From positions 32,918 to 96,917 of the forward strand of contig JAOTOM010002274.1 in the NCBI GenBank assembly GCA_034440615.1: a stretch of DNA of 64,000 nt, written 5' to 3'. Under the pieces are notes generated by a model. The model did no database searches. It saw only the letters and a list, made by a program, of their open reading frames with translations, and was not told the DNA's origin. The DNA comes from Ashinkailepas kermadecensis. Taxonomy: Eukaryota; Arthropoda; Thecostraca; Neolepadidae. Each line of letters begins with the position of its first letter. Within the stretch, counting starts at the first letter, position 1. Shown one piece after another: positions 17,905-53,960 of the stretch. The translations under genes were made by a program, and so were the position numbers.

Positions 17905-18029
17905 ATAAGCATGCAGTTCCCCAATTTTGTTCCTAACACGTCTGGCATTGACGTAAAAACATGATAAACCATTCCTTCCCTTGTTTGCAAGACTTCTCTC
18001 TCTATCAGCTACATCCCCCCATGACCTGC

Positions 18030-18893
18030 CTAGTTTCCCTGTTTCCTATTGAGAGCCTCCTCATGCCTATTGCTGAGCAATTCAACTCCTCTCTTGCTCA
18101 AATGTAACCCATCTAATGCAAACATTTCAGTCTTCCCCCAGAACTCCCCCCACAAATCCAAGAACCCCACCCCAAGTTCCTTACAAATCTTGGCCACCCT
18201 GGTATTCAGCCCAATGGCCCTCGAGTACCACTCTATGCTTGCGTTAACCATAGGGAGGATGGAAGTTACCATTCCTCGTTTCCTACTTACAGCTAGCCTA
18301 CCTTTCAAAGCCCTATACTCTTGTATTGTTTTCTCTGTTTTTGCTTTTCCTACATCATTTACACCAACCTGCACAATTACTGTTGTGCTCTCTCCACTAC
18401 CCTTCATTACTCCTATCCTATCACCAACATCCTTTACCTGGGCCCCTGGGAAGCAAACACGAATCCGTTTGTTGGGGTTCCTGCTACAAAAAGTACGGTC
18501 CATGTACCTCACTCTTGAGTCCCCTATAACTAAAACCTCCCCCTCTCTATCCTCAGCTACCTGGTCATTCCTACCTTCCTCTTTAGCATTACTATCTCTC
18601 TCTTGCAGTACCTCAAACCTATTATTAGTTTCAATGCCTTTGTCCATTTTCCTTAAAGCCAGTCTCGTACTCTGGCGTCTAGCTACTTTCCACTCCCTAC
18701 TATCATGGTCCATACTATCTCCACCCCTATCACTCCTAGGCTCCTGCACCTGGCTTGCCTGGCTGACATTTCCTATGGTGGGCCCTGCCAACAAACACTC
18801 CAGGCGCTCCACCTCCCTTGCTAACATATCTACTTTCTTACTCAAGTCCCCAATTACTTCCATACACTTACACTTCCCACAGTCACCTTGCAT
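18030..18893 (-). CDS. CR1 ORF1 protein with SGNH/GDSL-type esterase domain (287 aa)
   Basis: This is an intact 287-codon frame just upstream of ORF2 within the CR1 element. An N-terminal cysteine pair and coiled coil (residues about 5-35) precede a basic, polar linker. From about residue 120 an SGNH hydrolase fold can be read: VLVIGDSRVRY (block I Ser), VQVGVNDVG (block III Asn) and DGLHLSKRG (block V Asp and His). Esterase-bearing ORF1 proteins are known in CR1-like elements and are thought to help the retrotransposition particle. The frame is open although ORF2 is dead, so this copy could only act in trans. Confidence 0.75.
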   Translation of the reverse strand: MQGDCGKCKCMEVIGDLSKKVDMLAREVERLECLLAGPTIGNVSQASQVQEPRSDRGGDSMDHDSREWKVARRQSTRLALRKMDKGIETNNRFEVLQERDSNAKEEGRNDQVAEDREGEVLVIGDSRVRYMDRTFCSRNPNKRIRVCFPGAQVKDVGDRIGVMKGSGESTTVIVQVGVNDVGKAKTEKTIQEYRALKGRLAVSRKRGMVTSILPMVNASIEWYSRAIGLNTRVAKICKELGVGFLDLWGEFWGKTEMFALDGLHLSKRGVELLSNRHEEALNRKQGN

Positions 18894-19311
18894 TTTTTTT
18901 CTTCTCTAAACTTAAATCTTAAACTTAAACACCAAAAAGACTCTCCCACAAGACTAGAAAATAGAATAACACTCACACTGAATAAACAACAAAATAAATA
19001 TCTGCTTTCGCAAGCTAAACTAAGCAAATATAATCTTAGTTATACCAACTCCCATCAGCTACAAACTCCAACTAAATGAAACTAAATACTAATATAATCC
19101 CAAAAAGCCTATATAGGTACCTCTACGATTACTCCAGTATATGAAGATATAACTAGTGTAATCAAAGCTCACTAGTTTAGTCTTAAACTCTATCTTAAAC
19201 TTAAACACCAAAAATACTATGACACAAGTCTAAATAAATGATGTTGAGAAAGAATTAGTATTATCTAATGTAACTTATAATATCCTCCTATTGTATCCTC
19301 ACTTTATTTCC

Positions 19312-21982: not shown

Positions 21983-23702
21983 GTAAGTATGGTATGCAGG
22001 GCGGTGTGTTCAAGTTGGTGATTTTGGGTGCCAGAGCATTGTGTAAATACATTTACAATTGAGATGGCTTCCAAATCATGAGGAAAACAGTCAATCTTGG
22101 AATTCAGACATATTTTGATGGAAGGAATCAGACGAATTTTGTTCCAATTATATTGTCTGTCACAGGTTATCCAGGGATAATGCTTATTTAAATCCTGATA
22201 CCAAGCTGCGCGAATTTGAACATACTGCTACAAGGTGTTTGCTGCTGATATTGCTCAGAGAGGTATAGATCAATAATGTATAATTATTATAAATTGTCTT
22301 ACTGCTTTGTTTAGAAAGGTTCCTGGAAAGGGACTTGAAGAGGATGCAGTGTTATTGAATCCTTGTGGAGTGTGTGGCCAAATGGTCAAATGGCCTGACC
22401 TGTTCGGATGGAAGCAATGTCGGAGTCACAAGTCTTATTCACATGTCCCTGGAGTATTTCTGGTGGACACATCATGAGAGAAACTGACAACCAATGCTTT
22501 GCTAGTGGTATGCTTAATAAGTGAACTTTCAGTGAGAAAAGATGCAAAGAGGTGATCTAGGATACATGGGCTGGGCTGAGGTTAAACTTATTGTAATCAT
22601 GCTATCTGTGACAACTAACAACAGCTGTAAGCTACGTGTGGGCCACTATGGGCGATGGTGTTGTTGGTTTGGAGGGAGGGGGGGGGGGTAGCAACCCAAT
22701 ATTTCATGACAGGGGAGCCTATCCCTGTCATGGAACATGAGGAAACATCAGTTGCCCTCCCCCCCCCCACCTCCCTCCACTAAATTTTCAGGAGTCCCTA
22801 AGCATAAAGGGATGCCCATCAAGTTCCCTGGGGGTCCATACTGGGGGGACAGGAGAGCCATTAGTTTTGGAAAAACATTGCTAAAGCTCCTGAAAAGACC
22901 CCAACACCCAACAGGAGGCCCATTTATGCTGGCTTGAGGCTTCATGTTAGGAGACCTGACAGGAGGCTGCTGGAGCTGATGAAATGGCCCCAGTACCATC
23001 ATGTCAAGACAGGTCTGCAGGGAGCCTATATAAAACCTGAAATGCAGGGAGATCCAAGCTCAAGAGGAGCTCATGGAGGACCTTTTGCTGCCACTGGAAA
23101 AAAAACATGGTTGCTAATGATCACAAAACTGGTCAAAGCACCCTGAAGCCTAAATAACAAATTAACTTGAAGAAATTGATGATACTGCCCTACTGCCCCG
23201 ATGACTAGCATCATTGCATTGTAATATACTTCATTGTGAATGTCTGCATATTTGTCGTGCTTGAAGCTGTATAGTCACTGATGTGTGCCAAACCCAAATT
23301 ACTGCATTTAAAAGTGAATGTAGTGTGTCTGTGTATCTCCCCGGAATATATCACCAAGATGCTCTCCACCAAATCCGACATGCATCGCTCTATCTGGCAT
23401 CGCATCTAAACTACGTTTGCGTGTGTGTTTCAGGCGTCAATAAACACTTCCAGATGCTGATGATTGTGGAGCGATTCTGCTCGCGCGTGCAGCGGGATGT
23501 GCCGGCCGCCACCATCTGGCAGCGGCTCAACCAGCTGTACGACATGACGGCTCTGGTGAGGATGTCCGGCTGCCACCGCCCAGCCCCGCCGCCCACTCGT
23601 GGGTGGCAGGGGCCCGTGGAAAGTGTGGACTCGTAGTCGGAAAGGATGCCTCTTGAAGTGGTGTTTTGACAGGAGTCTCTTAGCTGAGCGGGCTTTTTAT
23701 CT

Positions 23703-23757
<55 letters not shown>

Positions 23758-23914
23758 GATAGAGATAGAGATAGAGATAGAGATAGAGATAGAGATAGAG
23801 ATAGAGATAGAGATAGAGATAGAGATAGAGATAGAGATAGAGATAGAGATAGAGATAGAGATAGAGATAGAGATAGAGGGAGAGGGAGGAGAGGAGGGAG
23901 AGGGAGGGGGGGGG

Positions 23915-23960
<46 letters not shown>

Positions 23961-25755
23961 GGGGGGGGAGAGGGGGGGGGGGGAGGGGGATGGGGGGGGA
24001 GGACAGGGAACAAAGGTGGTGTCTGCCCTGCCGTCCTTGGATCCGCACCTGTTTTGTGAAGGGTCATGTGGATGTAGATAAGTAAAGGTGGAATGAAATT
24101 TGAATAGTGTGATGGGTGATGAAGTGTTGAGTGTATTGCTGCAGAGATTGTGTTGTGTATTGGGTCTCGGGCATTCCAGAGCAAATGGAAGTCCACAGTA
24201 TGCGAAGTCAGAATGTGTACTAAAGACATAAAATCCTAGGAACAGGAAACGCACGGACATGGTTTTTTGCGCTAAGTTTGGATCATGCTATTGTCGAGCA
24301 GCAGCATTCAAGTATCTCGTGGAATGAAATAATCCGAAGATTATGTAGAGTGCATCATGTTTTAGATGACGAAAATTCAGAATTATGCTGTTTTGTTCAA
24401 ACATGATTGGTGGGGAGTGGGGACGAGTGTAGTTTATCATGGAATATGTATTTTTAAGACAAACAACTGTTCTGCAGTATGCACCCTACCTAGCTGATTT
24501 TTTTCGTGCGAATAAATACTTGATCAATTTAAAATATAACGGGCTTGACTCTCCACTTCTAAAACAAACGAAACAAATAATTCAACCAGGGCTGGAAATC
24601 CTTCAAGAAGCCGGTCAGTTAGAAGTAAAGTTGCTCTCAAAGCTGTATTCTGCTTTTATTTGTCACATAGCCTTACACTCCGATACCATACGTCGATTTC
24701 GAGACCGCGAACTTCGGAACTAGTCCCGTCTTCTCTAGACCCTTGTAGCACTTCTATGACTCTCACAGTTGGTGCAATACCTGCATAGTCTCCCCACAAT
24801 CTGTGCGGTGCGTCTGTAATCTTCGACAGTCTGTGCAGTAGCTTTCTAGACGTCTACAGTATGCGCGAGACCCCTGCGGCATGCCGGCACCTTCGCAACC
24901 TGCCACGCTCCATCCAGCACCTTCGCAACCTGCCACGCTCCACCCGGCACCCCTGTAATCCCCGCGCGGTGCGCGTACACTGGCAGGACGAGTTGGAGGG
25001 GTTGCCGTTCCCGAACTCCGAGTCCGAGTTCGACCTTCCCTCGGACGAGTTCGACAGTCTGATCCAGGAGAAGCTGCGCAGCGACGAGCAACAGCTCGAC
25101 GAGGAATCGCTCACGCCGTCTGAGTCGCGTCGCGCCAAAATCAAGGACGAGCGCGGTAAGCTGCGCCACGCAGGCACTGATGGAGCCGCACTTGAGGCAT
25201 AACATCATGTCCCAGTCGCCTGTTTCCACCCGGACTTATGGTTCCGCCGAAATTGGCCTTGGTACGGCGTTGACTGGAAAGAATCGGGCTAAAAATCGTA
25301 CGGTGCCGTTTCCCTTTCAATTCGGACGTTCCGCCACCTATGGTTCGCATGATACGAACCCACTCCACAGAGACCATGTCACTACTAATACTCATAAAAA
25401 GAGCAGTCTGTCTGCCCGACCCCAGTCCAAGAACCAAGAATCCAAGTCCAATAAGTATTGTCAGTACCTATTTGTCAATATCTCTACAAATTCCTGTATC
25501 GTCGATCACTTATTTGAAATAGCTTCAGAGATCACTCACTCATCTGTACTGTCCTTCGGTCACGCTTCACCTTTCGGATGTTATGCTTAGTTCCCGATCT
25601 TGTCCACAGGTGGCAGCATAACTCGTGAGAAGCGTAAGAGCGAAGCCAGCGACACGTTGCGGCGGGCACCGAAGCGTGGAGCGACCCGGGACAGCACGGG
25701 GAAGGCCGGGAGTCCGGTGACCACCCCGCTGGCAAAGCGCTGCCGACGAATCTGA
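21880..25755 (+). CDS. MRGBP: MRG/MORF4L-binding protein (MRGBP/EAF7 family), four exons, 179 aa
   Basis: Exons are 21880-21982, 23434-23555, 24987-25155 and 25610-25755; all junctions are GT-AG and keep phase (1, 0, 1). Start ATG at 21880, stop TGA at 25753. The N-terminal half is the EAF7/MRGBP domain: WSVENEIHLFDAM and GYKPVGVNKHFQM (residues about 16-42), TIWQRLNQLYDM (61-72), then ELEGLPFPN (76-84). An acidic stretch follows, then a basic tail ending KRCRRI. In animals this protein joins MRG15-type chromodomain proteins to the NuA4/TIP60 histone acetyltransferase complex in the nucleus. Human MRGBP has 204 aa; this one is slightly shorter in the tail. Intron 2 carries a 290-bp simple-repeat tract. 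Exons 3 and 4 are GC-rich compared with the introns. Confidence 0.92.
23434..23555 (+). CDS. MRGBP: MRGBP exon 2
   Basis: The acceptor is GTGTGTTTCAG and the donor CTCTG|GTGAGG. It encodes VNKHFQ to YDMTAL, the core of the EAF7 domain. Confidence 0.9.
23706..24000. repeat. composite simple repeat (GA)n, (GATAGA)n, poly-G
   Basis: (GA)n runs to about 23740, (GATAGA)n to about 23878, then a G tract with rare A interruptions to about 24000, including one uninterrupted run of about 40 G. It lies in MRGBP intron 2. The long frames on both strands are repeat artefacts. Confidence 0.95.
24439..24723 (+). other. unassigned 94-codon open frame in MRGBP intron 2
   Basis: It has an ATG start and a TAG stop, with an amino-acid mix that looks protein-like (several Leu/Ile-rich helices) but matches no family I recognise. 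It could be a retroelement remnant or chance. Confidence 0.15.
24987..25155 (+). CDS. MRGBP: MRGBP exon 3
   Basis: The acceptor is ACACTGGCAG and the donor GCGCG|GTAAGC. It encodes DELEGLPFPN to KIKDER. A duplicated CCTTCGCAACCTGCCACGCT block lies just upstream in the intron (24893-24950). Confidence 0.88.
25610..25755 (+). CDS. MRGBP: MRGBP exon 4 (terminal)
   Basis: The acceptor is CTTGTCCACAG. It encodes the basic tail GSITREKRKS to KRCRRI and the stop codon. Confidence 0.87.
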
Positions 25756-26178: not shown

Positions 26179-26337
26179 GGGGACGAGTGGTCTAGGGGTA
26201 AGATGCTCGTCTCACAATCGAAAGGTTGTGGGTTCGAGTCTCACCTGTCGCTACTCTTCGCCCGCGACCAATCGGCGTGAGAGATTGGCGACGCTCATGA
26301 CTCAAAGATCGACGTGTCGTAAAAACCAATAACCAAG
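26179..26337 (+). mobile_element. tRNA-derived SINE (type A)
   Basis: Head GGGGACGAGTGGTCTAGGGG with a B box GGTTCGAGTCTC, the shared body GCGACCAATCGGCGTGAGAG, and an AATAACCAA tail. A perfect 14-bp target duplication TACTTGACTGAGGT sits at 26164-26177 and 26338-26351. Confidence 0.92.
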
Positions 26338-29211: not shown

Positions 29212-29340
29212 TCACTGCCACAGCTGGCCATTGACGGCCTGTCCGCTGGTCAGCGCCGGGTACCCCGCGGCCGCGCCGCCGACCGCCCCCACAGGCAGCT
29301 GCTGGGCGCCCAGCGACAGGCCTGCCATCTGCTGGTGCAT
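29212..29340 (-). CDS. SMAP1: SMAP exon 9 (terminal)
   Basis: The acceptor is GAAATTTTCAG, then HQQMAGLSL to QLWQ and TGA at 29214-29212. The C-terminal match to vertebrate SMAP is clear. The acceptor region is duplicated next door (29371-29430). Confidence 0.9.
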   Translation of the reverse strand: MHQQMAGLSLGAQQLPVGAVGGAAAGYPALTSGQAVNGQLWQ

Positions 29341-32300
29341 CTGAAAATTTCGTACGGTTAGGTGCGGTCACAGCGACGGGCCTGCCATCTGCTGGTGCGC
29401 TTGCAAATGGCGTACGGTTAGGCGGGGTCACGTGACTTGATATCTAACACGTGGCCGACGCATGGCTAGTCGCCCTTCATCCAGAGTCGATTGGGTCGCC
29501 ACCGCGCGCACTTCCAGAGACAAATAAAAATATGGTGGTGAAAACCAGATAAAAATAAAACTTAAAATATCTGGTCTGCATCTGGGTGAAGGAACGGACC
29601 TTGAAACGCTGCAACACAGTTATGAAGGTCTAAAAGTATGTGACGGCTGGACCGAGCTGGGACGCTCCGGTGACATTTTCTCATATACGCAAGGGAGAAG
29701 GGATAATCGCTAGGGCATCGCCATCGCTCCTCCCCATAATCGCTAATATATCCCCATAAAACGGGACCAGGACACTCCAGCGGGACCCTTCCCTCCTCAC
29801 TACCCGCGACGAAGATGTCTTTCCTACTCGTGTGTCCGCAAAAACGGGATCAGAAGCAAGGATGTGGTCCTGCTGAAACAGCCATCTAAGAGACGGTCGT
29901 CACAGAACAGTGTTAAAATAATGTCTTTTCGTATCGGTGTGACATATCGAAACGAGTACAGTGGCGTGTCGAAAGTAGCAATGGAGACATGTTTAAAATA
30001 TCGATTCAGCGATTCAAGCTCAATTTTAGGCCAACAGCATACTCATAAATGGATGTTTTTCTTTAATTTATGGAGACACCTAACATAGGGACACCTATAC
30101 TGATAATGATCACAATACCATACCAAATAGCATCAACAAATGGCATTGCATAGTAGATCGCATCATTGGTAATTCCTGTACTTGAATTTCTGTTATAAGA
30201 TGCACATTCATTACACTCTTCAATGGTGAGCATCAAGCATGATACGCAAGATTCTTGGAAGCGAAACATGGATACTTCATAAACAAACACCAAGCACAAT
30301 GTTGATACATATTTGCAAACGGTGTCTATCCAGTGTTCGATAAATGGTATATTCCATCATATTTAACGAACAAACAATATCGCCGTCCGAGCGTCACCAG
30401 CTGGCGTGTGGACTTCTCCAGAGCTGGGTCTTCCGTCGGACATCGCTCACCTGATGTCCCAGCGTCACCAGCTGGAGTGAGGACCTCTCCAGAGCTGGGT
30501 CTTCCGTCGGGCATCGCTCACCTGGTGTCCCAGCGTCACCAGCTGGAGTGAGGACCTCTCCAGAGCTGGGTCTGCCATCAGGCATCGCTCACCTGGTGTC
30601 CCAGCGTCACCAGCTGGAGTGAGGACCTCTCCAGAGCTGGGTCTTCCGTCGGGCATCGCTCACCTGGTGGTGTCCCAGCGTCACCAGCTGGAGTGAGAAC
30701 CTCTCCAGAGCTGGGTCTTCCGTCGGGCATCGCTCACCTGGTGGTGTCCCAGCGTCACCAGCTGGAGTGAGGACCTCTCCAGAGCTGGGTCTTACGTCGG
30801 GCATCGCTCCCCTGGTGGTGTCCCAGCGTCACCAGCTGGTGAGGACCTCTCCAGAGCTGGGTCTTCCGTCGGGCATCGCTCACCTGGTGGTGTCCCAGCG
30901 TCACCAGCTGGAGTGAGGACCTCTCCAGAGCTGGGTCTTCCGTCGGGCATCGCTCACCTGGTGGTGTCCCAGCGTCACCAGCTGGAGTGAGGACCTCTCC
31001 AGAGCTGGGTCTTCCGTCGGGCATCGCTCACCTGGTGGTGTCCCAGCGTCACCAGCTGGAGTGTGAACCTCTCCAGAGCTGGGTCTTCCGTCGGGCATCG
31101 CTCACCTGGTGGTGTCCCAGCGTCACCAGCTGGAGTGAGGACCTCTCCAGAGCTGGGTCTTCCGTCGGGCATCGCTCACCTGGTGGTGCCCCAGCGTCAC
31201 CAGCTGGAGTGAGGACCTCTCCAGAGCTGGGTCTTCCGTCGGGCATCGCTCACCTGGTGGTGTCCCAGCGGCGGCAGACTGGACGGAGCTGATGCCATGT
31301 CGAACGTCTGGCCACCACCAGCCAGCGACGGCTGCTGCTGCTGCCGTCGGGACAGACGCGCACGTCACACGGACAGTCGCCACCTCATTACTGCACAGTC
31401 GGCGGCGCACGCCCAGCACGCGGGGGCGACCGGTCTGGGGGCAAGGCGCCCGTCTCCCAACCGGAAGGTTGTGGGCTCGAGTCCCGCCTGTCGCTGCTCT
31501 TAGCCCGCGACCAATCGGCGTGAGGGACTACCGACGTCATGCGTCCCAGAACGGTCGACGCGTCGTGAAGCCAACAACAACCATCATCGCCGTCCCAGTG
31601 TTCCCACATTAGGCATTGCTTACTGGAGGGTGATCTCACATCAGACATTGATTATTGACAGGTCATCTCATGCTAGGCATTGCTTGCTGGGAAGTGATCT
31701 CACACTAGGCATTGCTTACTGGCGGATGATCTCACATTAGGCACTGCTCACTGGCGGGCGATCTCACATTAGGCACTGCTTGCTGGAAAGTCATCTCACA
31801 TTAGGCATTGCTTGCTGGAGTCATCTCACATCAGGCATTACTGGCGGGTGATCAGACATTGGGCATTGCTTGACGTATGGGAATGCACAACAGCTACACA
31901 CTTTCATGGCGACCATCCCAAATCCTGCCTTTTTGCATCACACATCTGGCGTTATTTATGTATTCACCTAAACACTAGCCTGTAATGCCTGACCAAAAGT
32001 AGAGTCCCCAGTGTGTGCTTCACCGCAGCACTGCACTGACCTGGTACGGCGCCGACTGGTAGCCAGGCATCTGTCGGACGTAGTGCGGCTGCTGGCCGGC
32101 CACGGGGTACAGCGCGCCGAAGCCCTGCTGGCCGGGGAAGCCGGCCGGCATTTGCGGCTGCTGTGGCGGAAAGCCTGCCATCTGCTGGTGCTGCAATTGA
32201 GACGGGAAGCCGGCCGGCTGCTGCTGAGGCGGGAAGCCGGCCGGAGATTGGCCGGGGAAGCCTCCCGGCATTGGCTGTTGGCCAGCGTAGCCGGCGGCAG

Positions 32301-35300
32301 AGCTGACAGCTGGCAAACTTGTGAAGCCTGTCAGACCACCACCTGCCGGTCACGGGTCAGCAGGTCACAGGCCGGCATGTCACGGGTCAGTATGTCACGG
32401 GTCAGCAGGTCACAGGCCGGCATGTCACGGGTCAGTATGTCACGGGTCAGCAGGTCACAGGCCGGCATGTCACGGGTCAGTATGTCACGGGTCAGCAGGT
32501 CACAGGCCGGCATGTCACGGGTCAGTATGCCACGTGCCACGGGCACTGGAAACTGATGTGAAAACACGTTTTGTAAATAGATTATTGACATTTTGACGAG
32601 CTTTTTAATAAATATCCACAATTGCTGTGGAAAGACTCGTGAACGAAATATCACAACACTCGATTTGACAGAGTTTCTTCCTCAGTCTCCAATATAATGT
32701 CGGTGATTTCACGTTATGAAGCGACTGACACCAAGGGTACTTCAAATTTGAATTGATGTTCAAATAACTGATTATACAACAGCGAGATAGAAATGCGTAT
32801 ATAGGCTATGATCACTGGATTGAAAATCGTAACTATGCTACCAACAGCTTCAGCATGTGATGGTGGATTGACGCTTTAGTACGCGCCAACCACTTCGGTC
32901 ATATTGCACCCATAGCATCCCCAGCATCACGCACCACCAAAACTCCGTCATGTGCGTCTTGAACCCCCGTTGGCACCCCCCCCCCCCTCCCCGCCCGAGA
33001 CGGGTGTGCCCAGTCGCGTACCGGCGGGTACGCCACCTCCGCTGCCACCGCCGGCCGGGCTTCCGTACAGCGCCAGGATGGAGTCTCGTGACATAACCTT
33101 GGCGGCGGCTCCGGCCGCCTCGTCAGCCGCCGACTGGCTGAAGAAGCTCGCCTCGTCGGCAGCCAGCACGTCTCCGGCCACCGCCGCCGTCGCTGCCGGC
33201 TACACACAGGGACGATGAGCGCTGGGGCGAGCACGCTACTCGGTGAACAACGAACACGCGCTACAAACACCATCAGGGTGTGTCCAGTGTCGCGTCCTCA
33301 TGTCAATGCGCCAGCAACCAGAACGTTGACGAGCATAACGCCGCAGTATCACAGTATCACGCCGCAGATCAGTAGCATCACGCCGCTCACAACATATCAA
33401 CAGAACAGAACCGAACACTTTGACAGTGGATCGAAGGCAAACACTGAGCCATCCTTTCTTTTCAGTCATGCTGTGCTGTCGACTATCTCGTGCCAGCGGG
33501 CGATCATGGTCGCCATCGGCATCGGGAGATGGCCGGCGCCGGGAGGGAGCACTTACGGCGGGGGACGAGACAGGAGTGGCCGAGAGGAAGTCCCCGAACG
33601 GGTCGGTAGCGGCGGCGCCAGCAGCCGAGGCGGCCGGAGAGGGCGTGTCTGTGGACACGCGCCATAGCGGTCAAGAGGTCAGACCAGCTTGGGTTGGTTG
33701 GTTATTGGTTTTACGACACGTCGACTGTTTAGTCACATAGCGTCGCCAATCTCTCACGCCGATTGGTCGCGGGCGAAGAGTGGCGACAGGTGAGACTCGA
33801 ACCCACAACCTTTCGATTGTGAGACTAGCATCTTACCCCTAGACCACTCGTCCCCCAGACCAGCTTGGGAGTGGCCCTGGATACGCGGCATATACTTCGA
33901 CCTGGGGAGACAAGTCAGCATAAATAGCAGGATAGAAGAGCATATGTTTCATTCATTACCACATTGGAATTCAATAACAGCCAAAAAATATCCCCAAAAC
34001 GGAGTCAGGCAGAGGAGGCTTCCATGAACTAGACATAGGCAGAGACAATGATGTATTCCTCTGCCCATGACTAGTTTATGGTAGCTTCCTCTGCTTGACT
34101 TGGCTCCGAGGATATGTTTGGGGTGTTATTATGTCTACGAGTATGATTTGACATACCACGCCACTCAGAGCACAAGACTGGCTCCAGCTTCTATCGTGAC
34201 AACTAGACACCCGACCGTCGGGGAGCACTGGCGACAGCTCGTACCCAGTTCCAGCAGGTCGGCGGCGGCGGACGGCGACGCCGCAGCCGCCGACACCGCC
34301 GGTGCCGGCGTCTCCTTCGGCTTCCGCTTGACGGTGGCCGAGGTGGACGCCGAGCAGGGCGCCGGCAGCAGCTTGGCCAGAACCGGCGTCGCTGAACTGT
34401 CCGCCCGACTGCGCGCGCTCTTCTTGTGATCCTTGGTCATGGCCTCGATCTCGGCGTCCCAGTTCACCTGCAGCCACAGTCAGCAGCGTTTCCTCTCACG
34501 ACGATCAACCCCCTCAACAGTCTCCTGGATTGTACGCGGGACCAGCGGCGTATCGTATTTTCTAAAATTATGACCGTTACAAATTGTGCACTTCGCAAAA
34601 TACGAACGCCCCCCCCCCCCCACGTGGGACTGTGTGCGGCGAGCTCTCTCAGTGCTGGTGTCCCTCAGTTAATGGATATATTCCACAAAAACAGACGTGA
34701 CTAAGTGCAGACCATGACGGCAAAGGTGGCTGGTGAACGTCAGTGATCTTGCCGTAGCGTCTGGTACGCCACCGCCCACCAGAGCCGTGGACAAGCTTTC
34801 TACCGTCCTCCACCTTGCTCGCGGACATTTTTTACTTCCTCTTTGCCTTGGTAGGTAGTTTAATTCTTTTACGACGCATCCGACTGCTGGGTCGTATAGC
34901 GTTGCCAGCTTCTCACGCAGGTTGGTCGCGGGTGGACTCGGTAATCCCGCCGGTTGTGGGATTCGAACCCACGATCTTACGACAAAGATTCCAACCCCCT
35001 ACCGACTGAGCTACCGCGGCCCCCAGTTCCTCTCTGCCACGCAAAAGCATAGATACATCACACAGCGCTACTCAATCACATTTAATTGCCCTCATTTTCC
35101 ATTAAATGTCACTTTTTTATTTTCAGGGATTTCCAAGATGAGAGAGAGGGAGAGAGAGAGAGAGAGAGCGCACTTGGATCTACATGAAATGCTACTTTTT
35201 AAGATGCAGGGCATCAACTATGTCACAATCCAGCCATGCGAGAGAAAAACTGTCGATGTAGGCAAAGAGCAGAGCCAAACTATTTCACCATGCAAACCAA

Positions 35301-38300
35301 AGGGGTTGTACAGAATGAAACATACCTAAAGCAAACAAACAAACAAACAAACACGAACAGCCCATGGCAACTTCACGAACGAGCTAGCTTGTTCGAGACG
35401 TGGCTGATGCCAAGCGTACCCACATGCCTGCCGCAGGTTGCTGGCTACTCTTCACAGAGCTGACCGTCCCGCCAGCAGCCGACTCGCGCGCGGGGATGGT
35501 GGGGAAGCGGTGCTGACCTCACGAGATGGCTGTCACTTTGAACATTTACAGACCCCAGCACGACCGTAACGACCGCTTCTAATTTAGAAATAATGTGGGG
35601 TCCGGCCAGGTGTGCATTATCCTAAGCAAAGATTATTTTGGCATCCACTTATTGACATCCTACTTCTACAGTAAATCACCTGCAACATATGCAAAAATAA
35701 ACAAACCAGAACATCGTACATCGAAATACCTAATTCTGAAATAACGAAGCAACACGTTCGTGCATATTACATGAGCCTAATCGCTCCTCCAAAAGCGCCA
35801 CCGTCGGATCGATCGGCTCGCTGAAATCGATTTCATGTTGATATTTCAGAGACTCCTTTAGTTTCCTGCATCGCAAGAAAATAACTGAAACCGAGACCCA
35901 ATCAAACGATTGGGACATGCCTCTTGGAGTTATAGGTTCTTCTTTATCACAGTTTTTTTTGCGCATGAACATATGCGTAATACAATGCACTGGAGACAGA
36001 GAGCCAGATCATCAGGGCCAGGTAAGACTGCAAACCTCGGGATATTTCTGACAAAATTTGGGTCAACTTAGGGTGAAGACACATTGAACTCTCCAGTCAG
36101 GAAAAGCAGATTATAATCCTTCGAAGAGCATGATGTTCTTGATTGGAAATATCAAGCGTGAGCTTCAGCCGTGCCCACGGATCACTGGTGGCACCCGATC
36201 ACCTTGGGGTGTCGCGGTGGCACCCACTCACCTTGGGGGTCATGGTGGCACCCACTCACCCTGGACTGCTACTGGTGGCGCCCACTCACCTTGGGCTGCC
36301 ACTGGTGGCGCCCACTTACCTTGGGCTGCCACTGGTGGCGCCTACTCACCTTGGGCTGCCACTGGTGGCGCCCACTTACCTTGGGCGGTCGCGGTGGCAC
36401 CCACTCACCTTGGGCTGCCACACTGGCGGATCTAGCCCACCGGTTTGGGGGGGCCAACTTTCGGTTTTCGGCGTCAGCCCCTCCCCTCCCCCAGTGGCGT
36501 ACCTAGGAATTGCATCAGGGGAGGGTCGAACGGATTTGGAGGGTGCCCATTTTCCCACTATTTTTGCTTAAAAGCACCAGATTTCGACCACTATTTGGCA
36601 AAGGGGCCCATTTTTTAAATAATAAGTAAAATAAAAATAAACTAATCATTGACAATATAATTTCCTGTATAGGGGGCCCAGCCTACCTCCACCTATGGAG
36701 GTTTCTATGTTACCGGATCTTTGTTCTTGTTTACCAAAACGTTCACGTTCACGTTCAACGTCCTGTACCACGTCAACGTTCGTGCACGTGTACACACTGG
36801 CGGATCCGATTTTGTCAACTCTTGCTGTAAGCAGAACTTGAACAGCATGGAACCCTCGATGTGTGTCAGAATCTACTATGCTACCATACTGGCTTCCAAA
36901 CAGTTATTTTTAATTTTGAAGAAAAAAAATCGTTTAAAATTGGAGATTCTTTCATCCAGACGCAATGTTTTAACCTCGGCAAAGGTTACTGCATTTTAAT
37001 TTAGTTGACTTCTGTTGGTTTCGGGGAGCCAAAAGACACCATGCCCCCCCATTTTAAGCGCTTCGGGGGGGCCATGGCCGGAATGGCCCCTCCCTGGATC
37101 CGCCAGTGAACATGCAAACCCACCAGTAATCTCTTATTCAGGATATAAATACATACCTCCTCTTGCTATTCTTCTTGAAAAAAATCAGTCAATGTAGCCT
37201 GTCTCTTCATCTTAGCAACCCCAACACCAACATACGAAGCATGCTGCTCAACTGGGCTCAACTGGTCACTCGCACAAAACATCCAGTTCAAATTCCGCTT
37301 TCGAAATCTGGCTCACTGGGTCCGCTTGTCCGTTACTGGCTAAACAAACTTCATGAACCTATCTGACGAAGGAATAATGAAACTGCTGATTTCGTCATCT
37401 CTTGCTGTAAGCAGAACTTCAACAGCATATAACCCAAGGCTATAGAACACCATAGAACCCTCGATGTGTCCGAATCTACTATGCTACCATATTGTGCTTC
37501 CAAACAATTATAACAAAAATACATTTAAAATTGGAGATTATTTCACCCTGAACGCTATTTCTTAACCTCAGAAAAGGTTACTGCATTTTAATTCAGTTTA
37601 CTTTTGTTGGTTTGGGGCGGGGGGCCAAAAGACACTATACCCCCCCCCCTTTGGGGCGCTTTGGGGGGGGGGGGGGCATGGCCGGAATGGCCCCCCTGGA
37701 TCCGCCAGTGGGCTGCTACTGGTGGCGCCCACTCACCTTGGGCTGCCACTGGTGGCACCCACTCACCTTGGGCTGCCACTGGTGGCACCCACTCACCCTG
37801 GACTGCTACTGGTGACACCCACTCACCTTGGGCTGCCACTGGTGGCGCCCACTTACCTTGGGCTGCCACTGGTGGCACCCACTCACCTCGGGCTGCCACT
37901 GGTGACACCCACTCACCCTGGACTGCTACTGGTGACACCCACTCACCTTGGGCTGCCACTGGTGACACCCACTCACCCTGGACTGCTACTGGTGACACCC
38001 ACTCACCTTGGGCTGCCACTGGTGGCACCCACTCACCTCGGGCTGCCACTGGTGGCACCCACTCACCTTGGGCGGTCGCGGTGGCACCCACTCGCGGGCC
38101 GTGTACTTGTTCTGCTCGTATTTGGCGCGAATGAACGCCTCCAGGGCAGAGTCGGTCTGTGGGCGCCGGAAGTTGTCCGGCAGGTTTGCCTCGTACACGG
38201 CACGTGCCCGGCTGTTGCCCATCTGCTGCAGACTCTGCGGATCACAGGGACACTGGCACATGCACAAACGTCTGTCGAGAACACGGTTGGACTTGAACTT

Positions 38301-41300
38301 TGTAACTATGGACGTGGAGAGTAAAATGATTGGGTAATCAAATATGGAGAGGGTATTTTGGCATGGGTGTGATGCCAAACCCATGACATCACAAGCTTAG
38401 TTTTCATCTTCCAATGAATCTTGAGCACTTTGTCACAGAGCAATTTATTGTTATACAGCACCATTCAACCTTCAGGTAAGAAAATGAGACGAAAATTGTT
38501 TTGAGGATAATGTTCTGGATGCCAAACATCCGGAAAAGTTCAACCCTGGTCGAGGTGGCAGGTAATGCCAGCTCACCCAGTCAGCAGAGAACAGTACCAC
38601 CAATTAGTTAGGTAGGAGCCCGCAACAAACGCCGAACACGTCACTAATCATCTTGGCAATGGATGCTGCAGTCCAGAGGGCAGGTGACGTGTTTCTATTG
38701 CGAATTTTGACATCCTACTGTACTCGTTTCGACATCTCACACCTAACGAAAAAACAATATTTTAACACCATTGCAACGACATATTTGTAATTTCACAAAT
38801 ATCATAAAGACTACCAGAGTAAAACACATTTCTCAATTGCCATGTATTGAACTAACCACTATCCAGAGTAGCCACCAGGGCTTTGTGTAAGTCAGTGGCC
38901 ATTACGGCACATGCGGCGGTTCGTGTGAGCCGAGCTTACCACCGCTTGTTCCGGCTTCCACGTGTCCAGGTTGACAGACTTCACCTTGGATATGTGCACG
39001 CCCAGGTTGCGGTGTATGCCCGCACAGCGGATGCACAGGAAGACGCCAAGGTTCCACGACGCCCATCGCGGACCTGCAACACGAAAGCAGCAATCTGAAG
39101 CAAGTCCTGCACAAAGACGCCACGAAGACGCCAATGTTCCACGACGCCCATCGCGGACCTGCAACACGAAAGCAGCAATCTGAAGCAAGTCCTGCACAAA
39201 GACGCCACAGAGACGCCAGGAAGACGCCAATGTTCCACGACGCCCATCGTGGACCTGCAACACGAAAGCAGCAATCTGAAGCAAGTCCTGCACGCCAATT
39301 GGAAAGCATTCGCAACGGCACCTCATGGTGAGACCGTGGATCAATAGTTATCAACGCATCCACCTTGCAACTATAGGATGCCAGGTGACCCTATTAGCAA
39401 GTTTGTGCAGTGCAAGTGTGTGCAAGTGCAGGTTACCTTTTTTTGCAGCAAACCGTGCAAATTCGACTAGACAGTGGTGACGCCATGCAACATATCAGCT
39501 GACAGCGTCGCGAAAGGCCCGAAAGAAGTTTTGGCACCACCGGTCATTGCAATGGAGAGAACAATCGATTTCCCTCATCTGCATGGTCAGGTCATATGGT
39601 CGAGACGGTCAAGGCGACCGATGAAGTCCCGACCAATAACAGAACATGCCAAACGTGTAGCTCAAGAAAAGCCAATGACATATCCTTGACATACCTTTTG
39701 TAATTAATGCCATGGTTGTGAAAGAAATATGTTCAAATACAACCTGATCAATCAAGAATAAGTCATTTTGCATGCACATAACCACAGTGAAAATGCGTGA
39801 AGTATCAATAATTCCCTATGCACATTGCATATGCTCCACAATTGATGAAAACAGTGAATTACATTTTCTTGGACAGGACACACATGGGTACATTGAAATG
39901 AGAAGCATTAACCTCCATTAGCCCTTCCAGCCAAATAAGGGCTTGATGGAGTGGGCAGATGAAAAGTTGCCAGCATTCTCAGTAGGGAATAACCACAATA
40001 GGACAATAGGCAGACTGTAGCAATAAATTCAGACCAAGCTTACTAAGTTGATGGAAGGAGAAAAGCAATTTGTGATCATCGGGCAAATGATGGCATGGTG
40101 GCATGGGTAGATTTTTATGTTAAATATCATGAAATTCATGAAGATCCTTGAAACCATTTATAGAAGCAGATGATCATTTGCATACAATTATGCAGTTGTT
40201 TAGATATAAGTAAGCAAATTTAGATATAAGTAAGCAAATTTAGATATAAGTAAGCACATTTAGATATAAGTAAGCAAATTTCAATGAATGGCTGCACCAA
40301 TCGCAAATCATTGGGGAGTGCAATAGATCTTGCTCCAGCACATACATTCCTGAATCTGCTTGTGCTTATTGTTAAATGAGTTCATATCACTAATAGGCTG
40401 TCACCCATTAACAGATGAAGTAAGACGTGAATAAAAATATTAAAAAAAAAACACCATGGCCATTACAAAAGATCAGCCACAAAGGATAATACAATACATG
40501 CACAGTAACTAAAACGTGTAATTAATTTTTCTAGAGATACATCACTTCTAATGGAAAGTTGGCAATTCCATCCTGATTGGTCATGGCAAAAAGCAGCAGC
40601 AGATGGGACTCAAGCCCACCTTTGGTTGAGAACCATCCTGCACTCACTCTGCCATGCAAAGTGAAAAGGGTGTAAGAACCATTTTTCAAAAATTGAGCTC
40701 TGAGTGTCATTTCACTTGTCTTGAAGAGGTGGATAATCTAATCCACATATTACTTCAAATTACTATTTAAGATACAATAATACTATTTACTACCGTGAAC
40801 CAGAAAGGAAAAAATGATAGCAGATACATGTCCATTTTGTAGGCATGTGACAAGTAAAACAATACATATATGCAGTAAAAGTGTGTATTCAGCTAAAAAT
40901 GACCCATAAACAGACATAAATTGAGTATTCATCTATATATGCTTTCCTTTCACTTAACCTGTCCCATTGTGGCAATAGTAAAGTGATGTATGTATCAAGA
41001 CATGCTCCTGTCCCCTTGTAGCCCTCATGGAAGGATGCACAAGGTTTTCTTTCGTCATGGGGTGGTACAATATATGAAAGGTGAAAAGGCACATGCTTAA
41101 ATATACTCTTTATTTGCTTGTCAAAGTTAATTTTGGAACATGATCAGAGAGTGCTTGTGCCACATACATCTTTCTTCCCTCACACTGAGCACTTACTCAT
41201 AAGGATGAAACAAAAGCTGGCAGATTCTTTTCTGCATGCCTGTATTCTCTGACTGCAGTACCATGGGCATGAGTTATGCCTTGACACTGTAGGAAGTGCA

Positions 41301-44300
41301 TCGTCATGCTCTAAAAATTAAATATCCTAGTTTCCAGGAGAAAAGAAATACCAGTGTCCTCCAAGCATCCGTCAACAGAAAAGAGAAGCATTGAAACTTC
41401 TGTGACATCTGATTTGATGGTGAGCCCTCTTTTGTATAGGAATAGTGGCAATGAGAAAACCAGGGAACAAATTGGAAGTATCTTGATTTTCTGACATGCA
41501 TAGGTGATATTTAATTCAAGAAGAACCTTGGGTTCTTTTACGATGCATTCAACTGCTAGGTCATATAGTGTAGCCAACCTCTCATGCTGATTGGTTGCGG
41601 GTGGAATCGGTAATGCTGCCGGTTGTGAGATTCGAACCCACAATCTTGCAATCAAGAGTCTGACGCTCTGCCAACTGAGCTACTGTGGCCCCCTGATATT
41701 TAATTGAAAAACAGCATGTTTTAATTAACCCTGGATAGGAATATGTCTCACTACATTTTTTCCCCAAAATAAATAGGGTATTATTCCAGATCTAGGTAAA
41801 ATGCGATTTTTGGGACTTATTTTTAATACAGGGTATTTTAATGTAAAAATCATGATGCGACCACTCATTTTCTCCGCAAATAATTATTTTTCAGTTGGCA
41901 AACAAATACACGACCATAATCTTCACTCTGCAAACATAGCACATCGCGTATAATTATCTGTACCTGGTGTGTCACAGACGTGATAAAGAAGACATTCAAC
42001 ACTTCATGCACTCAATTTAATACTCTTTGTCATCAAAAACCTTATGTTTCTGCCTTAATTCGACATTATCTCTGAGAATGAATACTCGCAACACATCGCG
42101 CCAGCAACCGTTGATAAGGGCCGGAAATTTCTTGCGATGCTGTATTATTCTATTTTCAATATATTTGATGACGTCATGGTGGAAAAATTTGTTTCGGATG
42201 ATTCTGGTTTTCCGGTTAGGTTAGGTTAGGTTAGGTTAGATTATATTATGATATAATATATTTTATATATTATGCCATGTTATCTTAGTCTAGGTTAGGT
42301 TAGGTTAGGTTTTTTTTCTTCCCCCGACTTAATGCATATGACGTCATCAAATCATTATGACGTCATCAACCGTCGCTGACTTAAAAATAATCATTTGCGG
42401 AGAAAATGAGTGGTCGCATCATGATTCTTACGTTAAAATACCCTGTATTCAAAAAAAAAATCCTAAAAATCACATTTTACCTGTTTCTGGACATTTACCA
42501 TAAATAGTTGGTTCTTAGGGTTTTAGGGTGCATCAACTGCATTGGATATACAGCACCCATTTCAAAATAAATAGACACCAGCTAACATTTCTAGTTTGCC
42601 AATATTTTTGCTAGCTTTCATTCATGGAAGCAGGCATTAGGCAAGTATCCACAGGAAAATAGAAGGCACCGAGTATATTTGTGAACATTTGGCCTTCCTT
42701 TTCAGCTATTTGGACAATACAAAGTTTAAAAAATGCATTTCACACATATGCTTTTTGCCACACTCCATTGGTAACCATGACAAGAAAAATGGAGTGCATT
42801 ACTGATATGCTCTCTGGACAACCCCTTTGCATTTGCCTAATGAAAGCAACAAGTTGCAACATATGCTTTTTGCCACATTCACATGAATACATACGCATTT
42901 TCGTTTCATGTACAAATGGCATGTCCTCCATTGCAGCTGCAAAGGTGAGCCCTTAAAAATATATATTGGATAAGTTGCATAGATACAGTGATATACATGC
43001 ATAAGCACAATTAGGCAAACTTTTCAAACCAGATAAGGAAACTCATGAGGCTATGCTCCAATTAGAGAGAAAGCATTGATTAAGAACAACAAAAATATCT
43101 CAAAATGTTAAGCCTTGTGCTTATGCTTTTCTGTCTTTGCAGAACAAAACTCACCCCCTCCAGATTCTTCCGAGGAAGAGGCAAGCCAATGATGAAAAAG
43201 GAGCAAGCTTTGATATCAAGCATCTGTCGCTTGGAAAAAGAAAACAAGGTGGGCTTAAAGTAGGGCTAATTTTCCCATTGCCCAGTCCCTTACACATGCT
43301 ACTGAATCCATAGACTGAAAATGGGGTCACATTTTCATTAGCTTAACCCTTGCCCATATAGGGGTGGGGTTGGTGCAACCCCCCCCCCCCCCCCTAAGGT
43401 TTTTTGTGTATTCCTTCCAAACTGGTGAACGGATCGCTCTGAGATTTTGAGTACCCTCTGGGGCAACCTTTTGACGACTTTTGGAGAAATGTTTTTTGGG
43501 AGGTCATGTCAGGTCACGGAGTTATGAGGTCATAAAGGGGAGCACCTCCAACCAGTTTTCAACAAATACATGATTATCGCACCTAAACATGACATTGTTG
43601 CCTACATCGACTGGTATTATGTGAAAAATACAGATGCCCAGATGGGTTCCCATTGAAAAATAATGTTCCAAAAATCGGTGACCTCGGGTGACCTTTCGAC
43701 CTTTTTTTAGCTGACCTACGGTAATTTTTCGTGCTGAATTCGAATTCAGCGTCCATTTTTACCCTAGGGAAGTTTAAACTTCGAAATTGGAATCACTTTT
43801 CAAAAAGTTGGATATTTGTGGTCATGGCTTTGACCTCATTTGGTGCACGACATATTGGTCCGATCACATCGTGTGACATGTCGTTATGTTCGCAAGGTCC
43901 CAATAAACATATTTCCGGCCATTTCGTGCATATTTAGACGGTAGTTTCGATATAACTGACGATTTTCTTAGGAAAATACAACAAAAAAATATATTTTAGA
44001 CCTTTGACCTGACCTGGAAGATCAACCATTGACCTTAGAAGGTCATACTGAATTGCAATCGCGAGATCTCGGCCAGATCTATAACTTTGGTCTTTGGTTC
44101 CTTTTCGTAACATGCACGGTTTCGAATCGCCAGGGGGGGTCGTACCCCCCCCTATACGACCGAAGGTGGTAAAATGCTGAATACTGGCGAGGGTTAATAT
44201 ATGTGTGTTGTGCATAAAGTAAGCATCTTAAAAACAGCAGGTTGAGAAGCTTTCAACAGCAGATATCTTACCTTTAGCATCACAGTCCACACAGTACTTG

Positions 44301-44395
44301 TTGTCTTCATCCTTTAGCATTGCAGTGAGGATAGCTTGGCATTTCTCCTGCACCAATTTCAGCTTCTCTGTTGCTATTCTACCACCACTGTTCAT
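29212..44395 (-). CDS. SMAP1: SMAP1/2-like ArfGAP, nine exons, 467 aa
   Basis: Exons in transcript order: 44395-44272, 39073-38940, 38234-38067, 34467-34245, 33648-33557, 33199-33022, 32309-32041, 31340-31254, 29340-29212. All joins keep frame with GT-AG borders. The start ATG has an in-frame TAG 18 bases upstream. The N-terminal ArfGAP zinc finger has Cys35, 38, 55 and 58 (C-x2-C-x16-C-x2-C) and a GIHR Arg63, the catalytic arginine finger. [12 protein letters not shown] and NFRRPQTD complete the domain (to about residue 136). Later come short SMAP motifs: [22 protein letters not shown], a Pro/Gln/Gly-rich part, and HQQMAGLSL with QLWQ at the very end. Family members activate GTP hydrolysis by Arf6 or Arf1 and act in clathrin-dependent traffic. 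Human SMAP1 is also about 467 aa; SMAP1 versus SMAP2 cannot be decided. Four exon borders are tandemly amplified. The exon 6 donor is the least certain border. Confidence 0.92.
29311..29430 (-). repeat. 60-bp duplication of the exon 9 acceptor junction
   Basis: 29311-29370 and 29371-29430 are copies. Each carries 30 bases of exon start (CAGCAGATGGCAGGCC) plus 30 bases of intron. The outer copy has TTTGCAAG instead of TTTTCAG, a weaker acceptor that still ends in AG. Confidence 0.85.
29441..30391. other. SMAP1: SMAP intron 8, distal part
   Basis: AT-rich intron sequence without a recognisable element. Confidence 0.4.
30392..31270 (-). repeat. 71/74-bp minisatellite carrying the exon 8 splice donor, 12 units
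   Basis: Every unit on the - strand contains the last 17 exon bases and the donor: CGCTGGGACACCACCAG|GTGAGC. Donor-bearing positions fall near 31245, 31171, 31097, 31023, 30949, 30875, 30801 (mutated), 30727, 30653, 30582, 30511 and 30444. Exon-near units are 74 bp. The farthest four lack one GTG and are 71 bp. Confidence 0.93.
31254..31340 (-). CDS. SMAP1: SMAP exon 8
   Basis: It encodes [16 protein letters not shown] to PPLGHHQ (29 codons), phase 0 at both ends. The acceptor sits in a CAG run after CTGTCCCGACGG, so the exact start could move by whole codons. The donor is CCACCAG|GTGAGC. Confidence 0.75.
31422..31585 (+). mobile_element. GC-rich, older SINE (type A relative)
   Basis: It has the same head-body order (TGGGCTCGAGTCCC B box, GCGACCAATCGGCGTGAG body, TCGTGAAGCC end), with many C/G differences from the AT-richer copies. 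No clear target duplication is seen. It lies in SMAP intron 7. Confidence 0.75.
31600..31875. repeat. 35-bp minisatellite, about 8 diverged units
   Basis: The unit resembles TGATCTCACATTAGGCATTG plus CTTACTGGCGGG. It lies in SMAP intron 7. Confidence 0.85.
32041..32309 (-). CDS. SMAP1: SMAP exon 7
   Basis: It encodes a Pro/Gly/Gln-rich stretch with repeated PAGFP and QQPQ motifs. The acceptor is AAGTTTGCCAG, the donor TACCAG|GTCAGT. It has 89 whole codons; two leading bases complete a split codon. Confidence 0.85.
32345..32535. repeat. 45-bp minisatellite, four units
   Basis: GCCGGCATGTCACGGGTCAG recurs at 32371, 32416, 32461 and 32506, with a 15-16-bp inner repeat (GTCACGGGTCAG). It sits just upstream of the exon 7 acceptor in SMAP intron 6 and does not contain the junction itself. 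Confidence 0.9.
33022..33199 (-). CDS. SMAP1: SMAP exon 6
   Basis: It encodes [10 protein letters not shown], a SMAP hallmark. The acceptor is CCTGTGTGTAG. The donor GCCG|GTACGC was chosen because it gives the phase needed by exon 7; nearby GT sites are alternatives. Confidence 0.8.
33557..33648 (-). CDS. SMAP1: SMAP exon 5
   Basis: The acceptor is GTGTCCACAG, the donor CCGCC|GTAAGT. It joins exon 4 to restore LLELD and adds [16 protein letters not shown]. Confidence 0.88.
33694..33856 (-). mobile_element. tRNA-derived SINE (type A)
   Basis: Full head, body and AACCAACC tail on the - strand. A perfect 13-bp target duplication AGACCAGCTTGGG sits at 33681-33693 and 33857-33869. It lies in SMAP intron 4, about 40 bases from the exon 5 acceptor. 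Confidence 0.92.
34245..34467 (-). CDS. SMAP1: SMAP exon 4
   Basis: The acceptor is GTGGCTGCAG, then [16 protein letters not shown] and a Lys/Ala/Pro-rich linker to AADLLEL. The donor is ACTGG|GTACGA. It is 223 bases, ending in phase 1. Confidence 0.88.
34848..35024 (-). mobile_element. tRNA-derived SINE (type B head)
   Basis: The head on the - strand is GGGGCCGCGGTAGCTCAGTC with B box GGTTCGAATCCC, a different tRNA from type A. The body (CGCGACCAACCTGCGTGAGA) is shared with type A. Flanks CTTCCTCTTTGCC and GTTCCTCTCTGCC form an imperfect duplication. Confidence 0.85.
35140..35170. repeat. (GA)n microsatellite
   Basis: Short (GA)n run inside SMAP intron 3. Confidence 0.9.
35171..36176. other. 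SMAP1: SMAP intron 3, no feature
   Basis: No recognisable repeat or exon apart from a short (AAAC)n run near 35330. Confidence 0.4.
36177..36420 (-). repeat. 30-bp splice-donor minisatellite, distal block (8 units)
   Basis: Same unit as 37711-38095. On the - strand each unit carries CCCAAG|GTGAGT or, in two units, AAG|GTAAGT. The block was cut off from the proximal block by the insertion at 36421-37710. Confidence 0.9.
36421..37710. mobile_element. hAT-like element, internally duplicated, inserted in the minisatellite
   Basis: The left end is CACTGGCGGATC and the right end GATCCGCCAGTG. Flanks GGCTGCCA and GGCTGCTA give a 7/8 target duplication that matches the minisatellite unit. An inner copy of the right end at 37097-37108 shows that the 3' half is duplicated. 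A fragment starting CAGTGGCGTACCTAGG (36493) is nested inside. A sister copy is at 54033-54591. Confidence 0.75.
37711..38095 (-). repeat. 30-bp splice-donor minisatellite, proximal block (12 donors)
   Basis: On the - strand the unit is GTGAGTGGGTGCCACC, AGTGGCAG, CCCAAG. The end of SMAP exon 3 (GCGAGTGGGTGCCACC ... CCCAAG) is the diverged first unit, so the array grew out of the exon end together with its donor. Every junction between units is a consensus 5' splice site. Confidence 0.95.
38067..38234 (-). CDS. SMAP1: SMAP exon 3
   Basis: The acceptor is TGATCCGCAG; it encodes SLQQMGN to [10 protein letters not shown] (56 codons). The donor chosen is the first of the array, CCCAAG|GTGAGT. 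Using the second or third donor would add 10 or 20 codons; later ones meet a TAG. Confidence 0.88.
38940..39073 (-). CDS. SMAP1: SMAP exon 2 (ArfGAP core)
   Basis: The acceptor is TCGTGTTGCAG, the donor GCGGTG|GTAAGC. It encodes [25 protein letters not shown] and KVKSVNLD, the second half of the zinc finger and the arginine finger. Confidence 0.93.
39039..39293 (-). repeat. exon 2 acceptor junction, three tandem copies
   Basis: Units 39039-39123, 39124-39219 and 39220-39293 each hold the first 35 bases of exon 2 with the acceptor TTGCAG|GTCCGCGATGG and its intron. Acceptor positions would start exons at 39073, 39158 and 39254 (spacings 85 and 96). The two outer copies encode [11 protein letters not shown] with Ile for Leu. 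Confidence 0.93.
39294..41516. other. SMAP1: SMAP intron 1, proximal part
   Basis: AT-rich. A 20-bp repeat (TTTAGATATAAGTAAGCAAA) occurs four times at 40199-40281. A possible decayed tRNA-SINE (GGCTTGAGTCCC on -) lies at about 40565-40660. No exon is seen. Confidence 0.4.
41517..41694 (-). mobile_element. tRNA-derived SINE (type B head)
   Basis: On the - strand it has a tRNA head with TAGCTCAGTTGGCAGAG, B box GGTTCGAATCTC, and the shared body. A perfect 12-bp target duplication TGATATTTAATT sits at 41505-41516 and 41695-41706. Confidence 0.9.
41794..42482. mobile_element. foldback element with TTAGG-like centre
   Basis: Arms of about 93 bp at 41794-41888 and 42390-42482 are inverted copies (AGGTAAAATG, ATACAGGGTATTTTAA, GCGACCACTCATTTTCTCCG). 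The centre holds two runs of TTAGG repeats around an AT palindrome. The left half of the centre (TTCTGGTTTTCCGGTTAGG) is shared with 55902-56237. Confidence 0.75.
42505..42562 (-). repeat. SINE 3'-body fragment (type C)
   Basis: Diverged copy of the 890-962 and 8078-8135 sequence. Confidence 0.35.
42706..42944 (+). CDS. candidate exon of an unidentified + strand gene
   Basis: An acceptor-like CCTTCCTTTTCAG opens the segment, and its right border GCTGCAAAG|GTGAGC is a strong donor. One frame is open to the donor, ending [13 protein letters not shown] in phase 0, which fits the next candidate exon. A CTTTTTGCCACA block occurs twice, so part may be duplicated or split by a further intron (a GTAACC donor lies at about 42771). 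I do not recognise the protein. Confidence 0.3.
43143..43248 (+). CDS. candidate exon of an unidentified + strand gene
   Basis: The acceptor TTTCTGTCTTTGCAG and donor AACAAG|GTGGGC flank 35 fully open codons plus one base ([14 protein letters not shown], then [14 protein letters not shown]). Composition is basic and protein-like. The phase agrees with both neighbouring candidates. The SMAP gene runs on the other strand here. No family assigned. Confidence 0.4.
43347..44193. mobile_element. piggyBac-like (TTAA) non-autonomous element, 847 bp
   Basis: TTAA flanks both ends (43343-43346 and 44194-44197). Ends CCCTTGCC and GGCGAGGG are inverted. C-runs mirror each other near both ends. The interior is non-coding but crowded with AGGTCA/TGACCT hexamers. 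A second element of the same style is at 58141-59156. Confidence 0.65.
44272..44395 (-). CDS. SMAP1: SMAP exon 1
   Basis: ATG at 44395; encodes [10 protein letters not shown] to YCVDCDAK and one base of the next codon. The donor is TAAAG|GTAAGA. A 3' splice-like GCTATTTCAG upstream (exon edge about 44422) suggests a separate 5' UTR exon farther away. Confidence 0.9.
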
Positions 44396-53380: not shown

Positions 53381-53960
53381 TTCGCTGTCTGGCAGGGGTG
53401 GCCCAGTCGACCCGCACGCGAGCGAAATTCACAGTTTAACTCATCATTGTCCACATCCACTGCACTTCACAAAGGTCTCGACGACTCTCTTGGGTGGTGT
53501 GCCTCCGACGACGCTCTTGGGTGGTCTGTCTCCGACGACTGCCTTGGGTGGTGTGTCTCCGACGACTGCCTTGGGTGGTGTGTCCCGACTCCCCCCGGGG
53601 TGGCGCTTATAAATGGCGCCGCCCCTGAGAGCGGCCGGCCCCAGGCGTCAGGCAACGCACGCCATCTCTTTGTGCCCCGTGGCCTGGCTGGTGGCTGATG
53701 GTCCCGGCTGGTGACGCTGGTGACTGGTGACTGGTGACTGCTGGCCGCTGATTGGCGGTTGGCGGTTCCGGCTGTCCAGAGCGGTGGCTGCTTCTAGGCT
53801 GATACCCTGTGACTAGGCGGGCGTCATTGCTTGCTCTGGCAGTAGCAACAAGTGGCCGCTGTTGCCAGTAGGGTGTGGGCGTTTCCGGTCGCGGCGGCTG
53901 GATGTTTCGCGGGTCGGGCCGCTGCATGGCGACCGCATGAAACGCCGTATTGAAAATGTA
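53381..53960. promoter_or_regulatory. GC-rich, promoter-like patch
   Basis: GC-rich island in AT-rich surroundings. A TATAAA at 53609-53614 on the + strand is followed by a GGCGCCGCCCC box, and there is a GATTGG (inverted CCAAT) near 53752. A 33-bp repeat lies just upstream. No exon with donor could be tied to it. Confidence 0.2.
53478..53590. repeat. 33-bp minisatellite, about 3.5 units
   Basis: CTTGGGTGGT plus GTGTCTCCGACGACTGC recurs with a 33-base period. Confidence 0.85.

Follow-up and report, generated by a model that had tools for sequence, protein, structure and literature searches.

The SMAP-type gene and its tandem arrays

A 64,000-nucleotide stretch of the genome of the barnacle Ashinkailepas kermadecensis (GenBank assembly GCA_034440615.1, contig JAOTOM010002274.1, positions 32,918 to 96,917 of the forward strand; hereafter the window) carries a gene whose exon-intron borders are repeatedly crossed by tandem arrays. 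As predicted from its sequence, this gene is a barnacle SMAP-type ArfGAP gene located on the minus strand, with nine exons and a product of 478 amino acids (aa). Comparison of the gene model with the output of Tandem Repeats Finder (TRF) placed arrays across four of its 16 borders, namely the exon 2 acceptor, the exon 3 donor, the exon 8 donor and the exon 9 acceptor. Arrays at these four sites were the core observation of a preliminary description of the locus, and this observation is confirmed, since all four were recovered by TRF.

A tblastn search, for which a SMAP protein served as query, located exons 1, 2 and 3 on the minus strand. The nine-exon join was derived from reading frames and splice signals and gives a stop-free frame of 478 aa that starts with MNSGG, ends with NGQLWQ and displays an ArfGap domain (Pfam, E 2.4e-41). 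The coding part of exon 1 extends from its ATG over positions 44272-44395 and is followed by exons 2 (38940-39073), 3 (38067-38234), 4 (34245-34467), 5 (33557-33648), 6 (33022-33199), 7 (32041-32342), 8 (31254-31340) and 9 (29212-29340, stop codon included). The interval of 29212-39293 previously given for the gene thus holds all exons except the first one. The top two protein matches both came from barnacles; that of Pollicipes pollicipes covers 100% of the query at 57% identity, and that of Amphibalanus amphitrite covers 61% at 67% identity. No near-identical protein occurred among the best 120 of 929 and the best 120 of 2373 matches, the nearest ones being from other barnacles. Junctions were predicted from frame, splice signals and protein alignment. 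The Pollicipes SMAP protein aligned end to end, and joins 1/2, 2/3, 3/4, 4/5 and 8/9 fell in recognisable or conserved sequence (join 8/9 being pinned by HQQMAG); for joins 5/6, 6/7 and 7/8, where conservation is weak, placement relied on frame and splice signals.

The four spanning arrays are composed of head-to-tail units of 30, 60, 71-74 and 85-96 bp and overlap the exons by 35 bp (exon 2 acceptor), 27 bp (exon 3 donor), 17 bp (exon 8 donor) and 30 bp (exon 9 acceptor). They consequently display both features of an exon-intron-boundary minisatellite, i.e. head-to-tail units of approximately 10-100 bp and an array that crosses the border. In all four, the junction that preserves the protein belongs to the exon-proximal copy and the remaining copies extend into the intron; the junctions are thus found at the exon-proximal edge of each array and not at its centre, where they had been thought to lie. 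Since the gene model draws on DNA sequence and protein alignment only, the junctions might have been misplaced, in which case the arrays would be simply intronic or exonic. Yet the joined frame is intact, splice signals are present and the alignment runs through joins 1/2, 3/4 and 8/9 beside the arrays, which makes such an error very improbable.

The array across the exon 2 acceptor (39039-39293, minus strand, 85-96 bp x2.8; acceptor at 39073/39074) displayed the three copies announced by the preliminary description. Each contains the intron end (a pyrimidine-rich stretch and AG) together with 35 nt coding for GPRWASWN(I/L)GVF, so that the two intronic copies encode a conserved SMAP segment. 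In the matching segment of six aligned SMAP proteins, L replaces the I in question, and V or I is found near the end.

At the exon 3 donor (AAG/GTGAGT, 38066/38067), the claim of about 20 copies was correct as far as the array is concerned, but the latter is split by an inserted element. Its exon-side part (37709-38093, minus strand, 30 bp x12.9) and its far part (36184-36418, minus strand, 30 bp x8.0) displayed 12 strong donor sites, authentic one included, and seven, respectively (donor strength was scored throughout with a scoring matrix). The last 27 nt of exon 3, coding for the conserved EWVPPRPPK, exactly recur at 36380 in the far part. The two parts form a single array interrupted by an element resembling a miniature inverted-repeat transposable element (36421-37710), whose terminal inverted repeats measure 15 bp and which includes partial internal copies. 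Similar sequence was seemingly present near 53800-54500, as judged by eye from translated frames.

The array across the exon 8 donor (30385-31270, minus strand, TRF 74 bp x12.1, units of 71-74 bp; donor CAG/GTGAGC at 31253/31254) comprises the expected 12 copies, 11 of which have an intact donor, including the authentic one. The duplication previously noted across the exon 9 acceptor was also present (29311-29431, minus strand, 60 bp x2.0), except that the acceptor of the upstream copy is altered (GCAAG instead of the authentic TTCAG). This decoy copy contains an 18-nt piece of the coding start of the exon. Separately, a 19-nt piece of the exon 9 start (coding for HQQMAG, at 29320) is exactly repeated within coding exon 7 (32173-32191), which represents a dispersed coding duplication. 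A fifth array with a 15/45-bp unit (32349-32534, minus strand) ends 6 bp before the exon 7 acceptor. The 3' end of intron 6 consists to a large extent of the last copy of this array, which repeats a CTGAC motif that is branch-point-like by consensus.

Decoy splice sites

The exon 3 array accounts for 19 strong donors and the exon 8 array for 11, authentic ones included, versus none at 11,365 positions outside exons and masked arrays. These two arrays have a donor consensus within the repeat units, as in the IFI6-type arrangement discussed below, a comparison that is not applicable to the two acceptor arrays. Such an accumulation could be taken as an indication that the arrays serve regulated alternative splicing in an IFI6-like manner, with 10-residue additions after exon 3 and a truncated end after exon 8. 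Indeed, translation showed that the protein would gain 10 or 20 in-frame residues from the first two decoys of exon 3. Decoys beyond these are less compatible with such a role. Among the 11 exon-side decoys of exon 3, to which translation was applied, the remaining nine stop early and would yield truncated proteins. Each of the 10 intact exon 8 decoys would lead to a 454-aa protein with an altered end, and both upstream acceptors of exon 2, like the single decoy of exon 9, would shift the frame and truncate the product. Likewise, no corresponding insert was observed in the two aligned barnacle proteins, both of which are from other species.

Sites kept for use might be expected to vary less than the remainder of the unit, but no extra conservation of decoy donors was found across the repeat units of the exon 3 and exon 8 arrays. 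Counting without the exonic copy, and with a small number of changes in both cases, one of 17 changes in the exon 8 array (12 copies) fell within the donor 9-mer, and 34 of the 74 nine-column windows had as few or fewer; the corresponding values for the exon 3 array (20 copies) were 11 of 45 changes and nine of 30 windows. This pattern of variability, read from the repeat units, favours tolerance of the decoys over their retention for use, and a function in regulated splicing appears unlikely.

Probable origin and tolerance of the arrays

The direction of copying was apparent for three arrays. At exons 2, 3 and 9, intronic copies contain coding sequence (conserved at exons 2 and 3), and since the source must have been sequence constrained at the protein level, copying proceeded from exon to intron. 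The exonic portion of the exon 8 array is short and less conserved and does not show the direction.

These observations are probably best explained by four independent and ordinary minisatellites, each seeded by a short duplication crossing a border and tolerated since splicing can still rely on the exon-proximal site. The first step would have been the local tandem duplication of a short segment that chanced to include the exon-intron border, and the array would then have grown by slippage or unequal exchange. Growth into the exon would have been removed by selection, and growth towards the intron would have been tolerated since splicing would continue to select the site closest across the exon, as expected under exon definition at long introns. 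Decoys would thus be nearly neutral, and neither a junction-specific mutator nor a decoy function would be required. The predicted 478-aa frame, which remains intact through the exon-proximal junctions, and the end-to-end alignment with the Pollicipes protein support this explanation. So do minigenes with two identical donors and flanking introns of 365 nt, in which the upstream, exon-proximal donor was used exclusively according to PMC9225289, although the intron-length classes given there are human and may not hold in barnacles.

The location of the arrays also fits tolerance of decoys under exon definition. All four spanned junctions are at introns 1, 3 and 8. No other intron of the gene is as long as these three, and this ranking holds after removal of array copies and of the insert (5028, 1714 and 1013 bp, versus 357-705 bp for the other five). 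The chance of all four occurring at long introns is C(6,4)/C(16,4)=0.008, a value calculated post hoc.

Independence of the four events, already proposed from the unrelated units, was supported when the four units were compared with the window by blastn, as no unit of one array was matched in another array. The same comparison (E up to 1) bears on the Rogers model, in which introns are gained when an AGGT segment is duplicated in tandem, and by which the arrays would mark recently born introns. AGGT does occur at the border in three units out of four, namely those of the exon 2 acceptor and of the donors of exons 3 and 8. Yet every array is confined to one intron end and blastn found no unit copy at the opposite end, so that this model, which calls for copies at both ends, was set aside as highly unlikely.

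The number of spanning arrays was compared with chance expectation in eight null models, in which each array was reduced to a single unit and its position randomised. Ten arrays were counted in the gene (TRF score of at least 50, unit of at least 10 bp), with the split exon 3 array entered once and a coding array in exon 7 retained as non-spanning; further short arrays appear at a lower TRF threshold, and the tested set is that of scores of at least 50. Runs on the shorter region 29212-39300 omitted two intron 1 arrays and hence included eight. Four spanning units were observed versus 0.44 expected for the whole gene (P 0.0005) and 0.62 for the shorter region (P 0.0016). When local G+C was matched and wholly coding placements were excluded, expectations were 1.60 (P 0.039) and 1.68 (P 0.047), respectively. 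For the whole gene, this increase of the expectation from 0.44 to 1.60 counts in favour of ordinary minisatellites, and the P values overstate the case because the gene was chosen for being striking.

Several points nevertheless weigh against four ordinary and tolerated minisatellites. The observed number exceeded expectation in all eight null models (P 0.0005-0.047), and among the eight donors of the gene none is as strong as the two arrayed ones (chance 1/28). It is with the exon 2 acceptor array that this explanation agrees least well: three near-identical acceptors should be error-prone, and human data in PMC9225289 indicate that acceptors under exon definition show just a reduced preference for the upstream site.

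The excess over expectation would also be compatible with a junction-linked or transcription-linked mutational process, involving R-loops or microhomology of exonic donor-like motifs with the donor, that seeds border duplications in this lineage. In this respect, exon 3 carries GCGAGTGGGTGCC 29 bp upstream of its donor GTGAGTGGGTGCC, which constitutes a ready slippage pair, and the fifth array stops only 6 bp from a junction. On the other hand, 12 of the 16 junctions are devoid of a spanning array, the four spanned ones are all at long introns, and no sequence is common to the units. The sense-strand GC skew of the four arrays was mixed (-0.12, 0.02, 0.21 and 0.17), and therefore no common R-loop signature was apparent, R-loops having been offered initially as one example of such a process. 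Furthermore, the EAF7-type gene of the window served as an independent check, and its one 30-bp minisatellite (2.2 copies) lies about 35 bp before an acceptor without crossing it. A junction-linked process is thus judged not needed to explain the arrays; it is possible, with a rather low probability. Several births of minisatellites across borders, in a gene rich in minisatellites, are the likely cause. The interpretation offered in the preliminary description is in this way partly supported, tolerance of decoy sites being the part that is favoured here.

Neighbouring features and known systems

Besides the SMAP-type gene, the window contains an EAF7/MRGBP-type gene (23434-25755, plus strand) with three exons recognised by eye. 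Its joined exons matched Pfam Eaf7 (E 1e-10), which supports the first of the two joins only. The comparison of arrays with junctions covered this gene and the SMAP-type gene, the other minisatellites of the window being located outside modelled genes. A SWAP-70-like protein is encoded by one open frame of 615 aa (5047-6891, minus strand; Pfam EF-hand_SWAP70_N, E 3e-18), and long frames resembling a retrotransposon without long terminal repeats were noticed by eye at 15997-18905 (minus strand). Five tRNA-like matches (26179-26254, 33788-33848, 41617-41689, 57686-57761 and 62139-62199) may belong to a tRNA-derived short interspersed element.

It is conceivable, if doubtful, that barnacle genomes have a process or an unusual tolerance by which exon-intron borders are repeatedly amplified into introns, with strings of decoys in many genes. 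Were the pattern common in barnacles, each array would represent a natural experiment with duplicated splice sites (up to 19 near-identical donors), a competition test of splice-site choice by which the rules of exon definition could be examined on native genes. Were it rare, the present gene would provide a clear example of ordinary minisatellites crossing coding borders without evident harm to the protein.

Boundary minisatellites are of a known kind; their fourfold occurrence in one gene is unusual, no report of several such arrays in one gene having been found in the open-licence literature searched. A minisatellite of IFI6 (6-16) reportedly gives multiple splice donor sites, as the title of Turri et al. 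(1995) has it; this title also implies that the extra donors are used. The barnacle arrays resemble it in that repeat units, each with a splice donor, lie beside an exon, and differ by the size of the donor-bearing units (30 and 71-74 bp, those of IFI6 being reportedly short) and by the amplification of acceptors as well.

The preliminary description knew of no account of four such repeats in one gene; for single arrays, a lack of earlier descriptions is not supported. Human genes in segmental duplications display internal tandem repeats at exon-intron boundaries with units of 30 bp on average, and 162 alignments led to 27 intron modifications after manual inspection (PMC2812944). These are likewise minisatellites at exon-intron boundaries; yet the human cases concern paralogs of recent date, which are supported by transcripts and vary in copy number, whereas the barnacle case concerns a conserved gene with four such sites, known from sequence alone. 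In the potato RNA-dependent RNA polymerase gene, a tandem genomic duplication across an intron-exon border created a new intron (PMC4974935). There, as here, the duplicated unit spans the border and inherits its splice signals, but a single duplication gave rise to a new intron in potato, in contrast to the multi-copy arrays found at one intron end in the barnacle gene.

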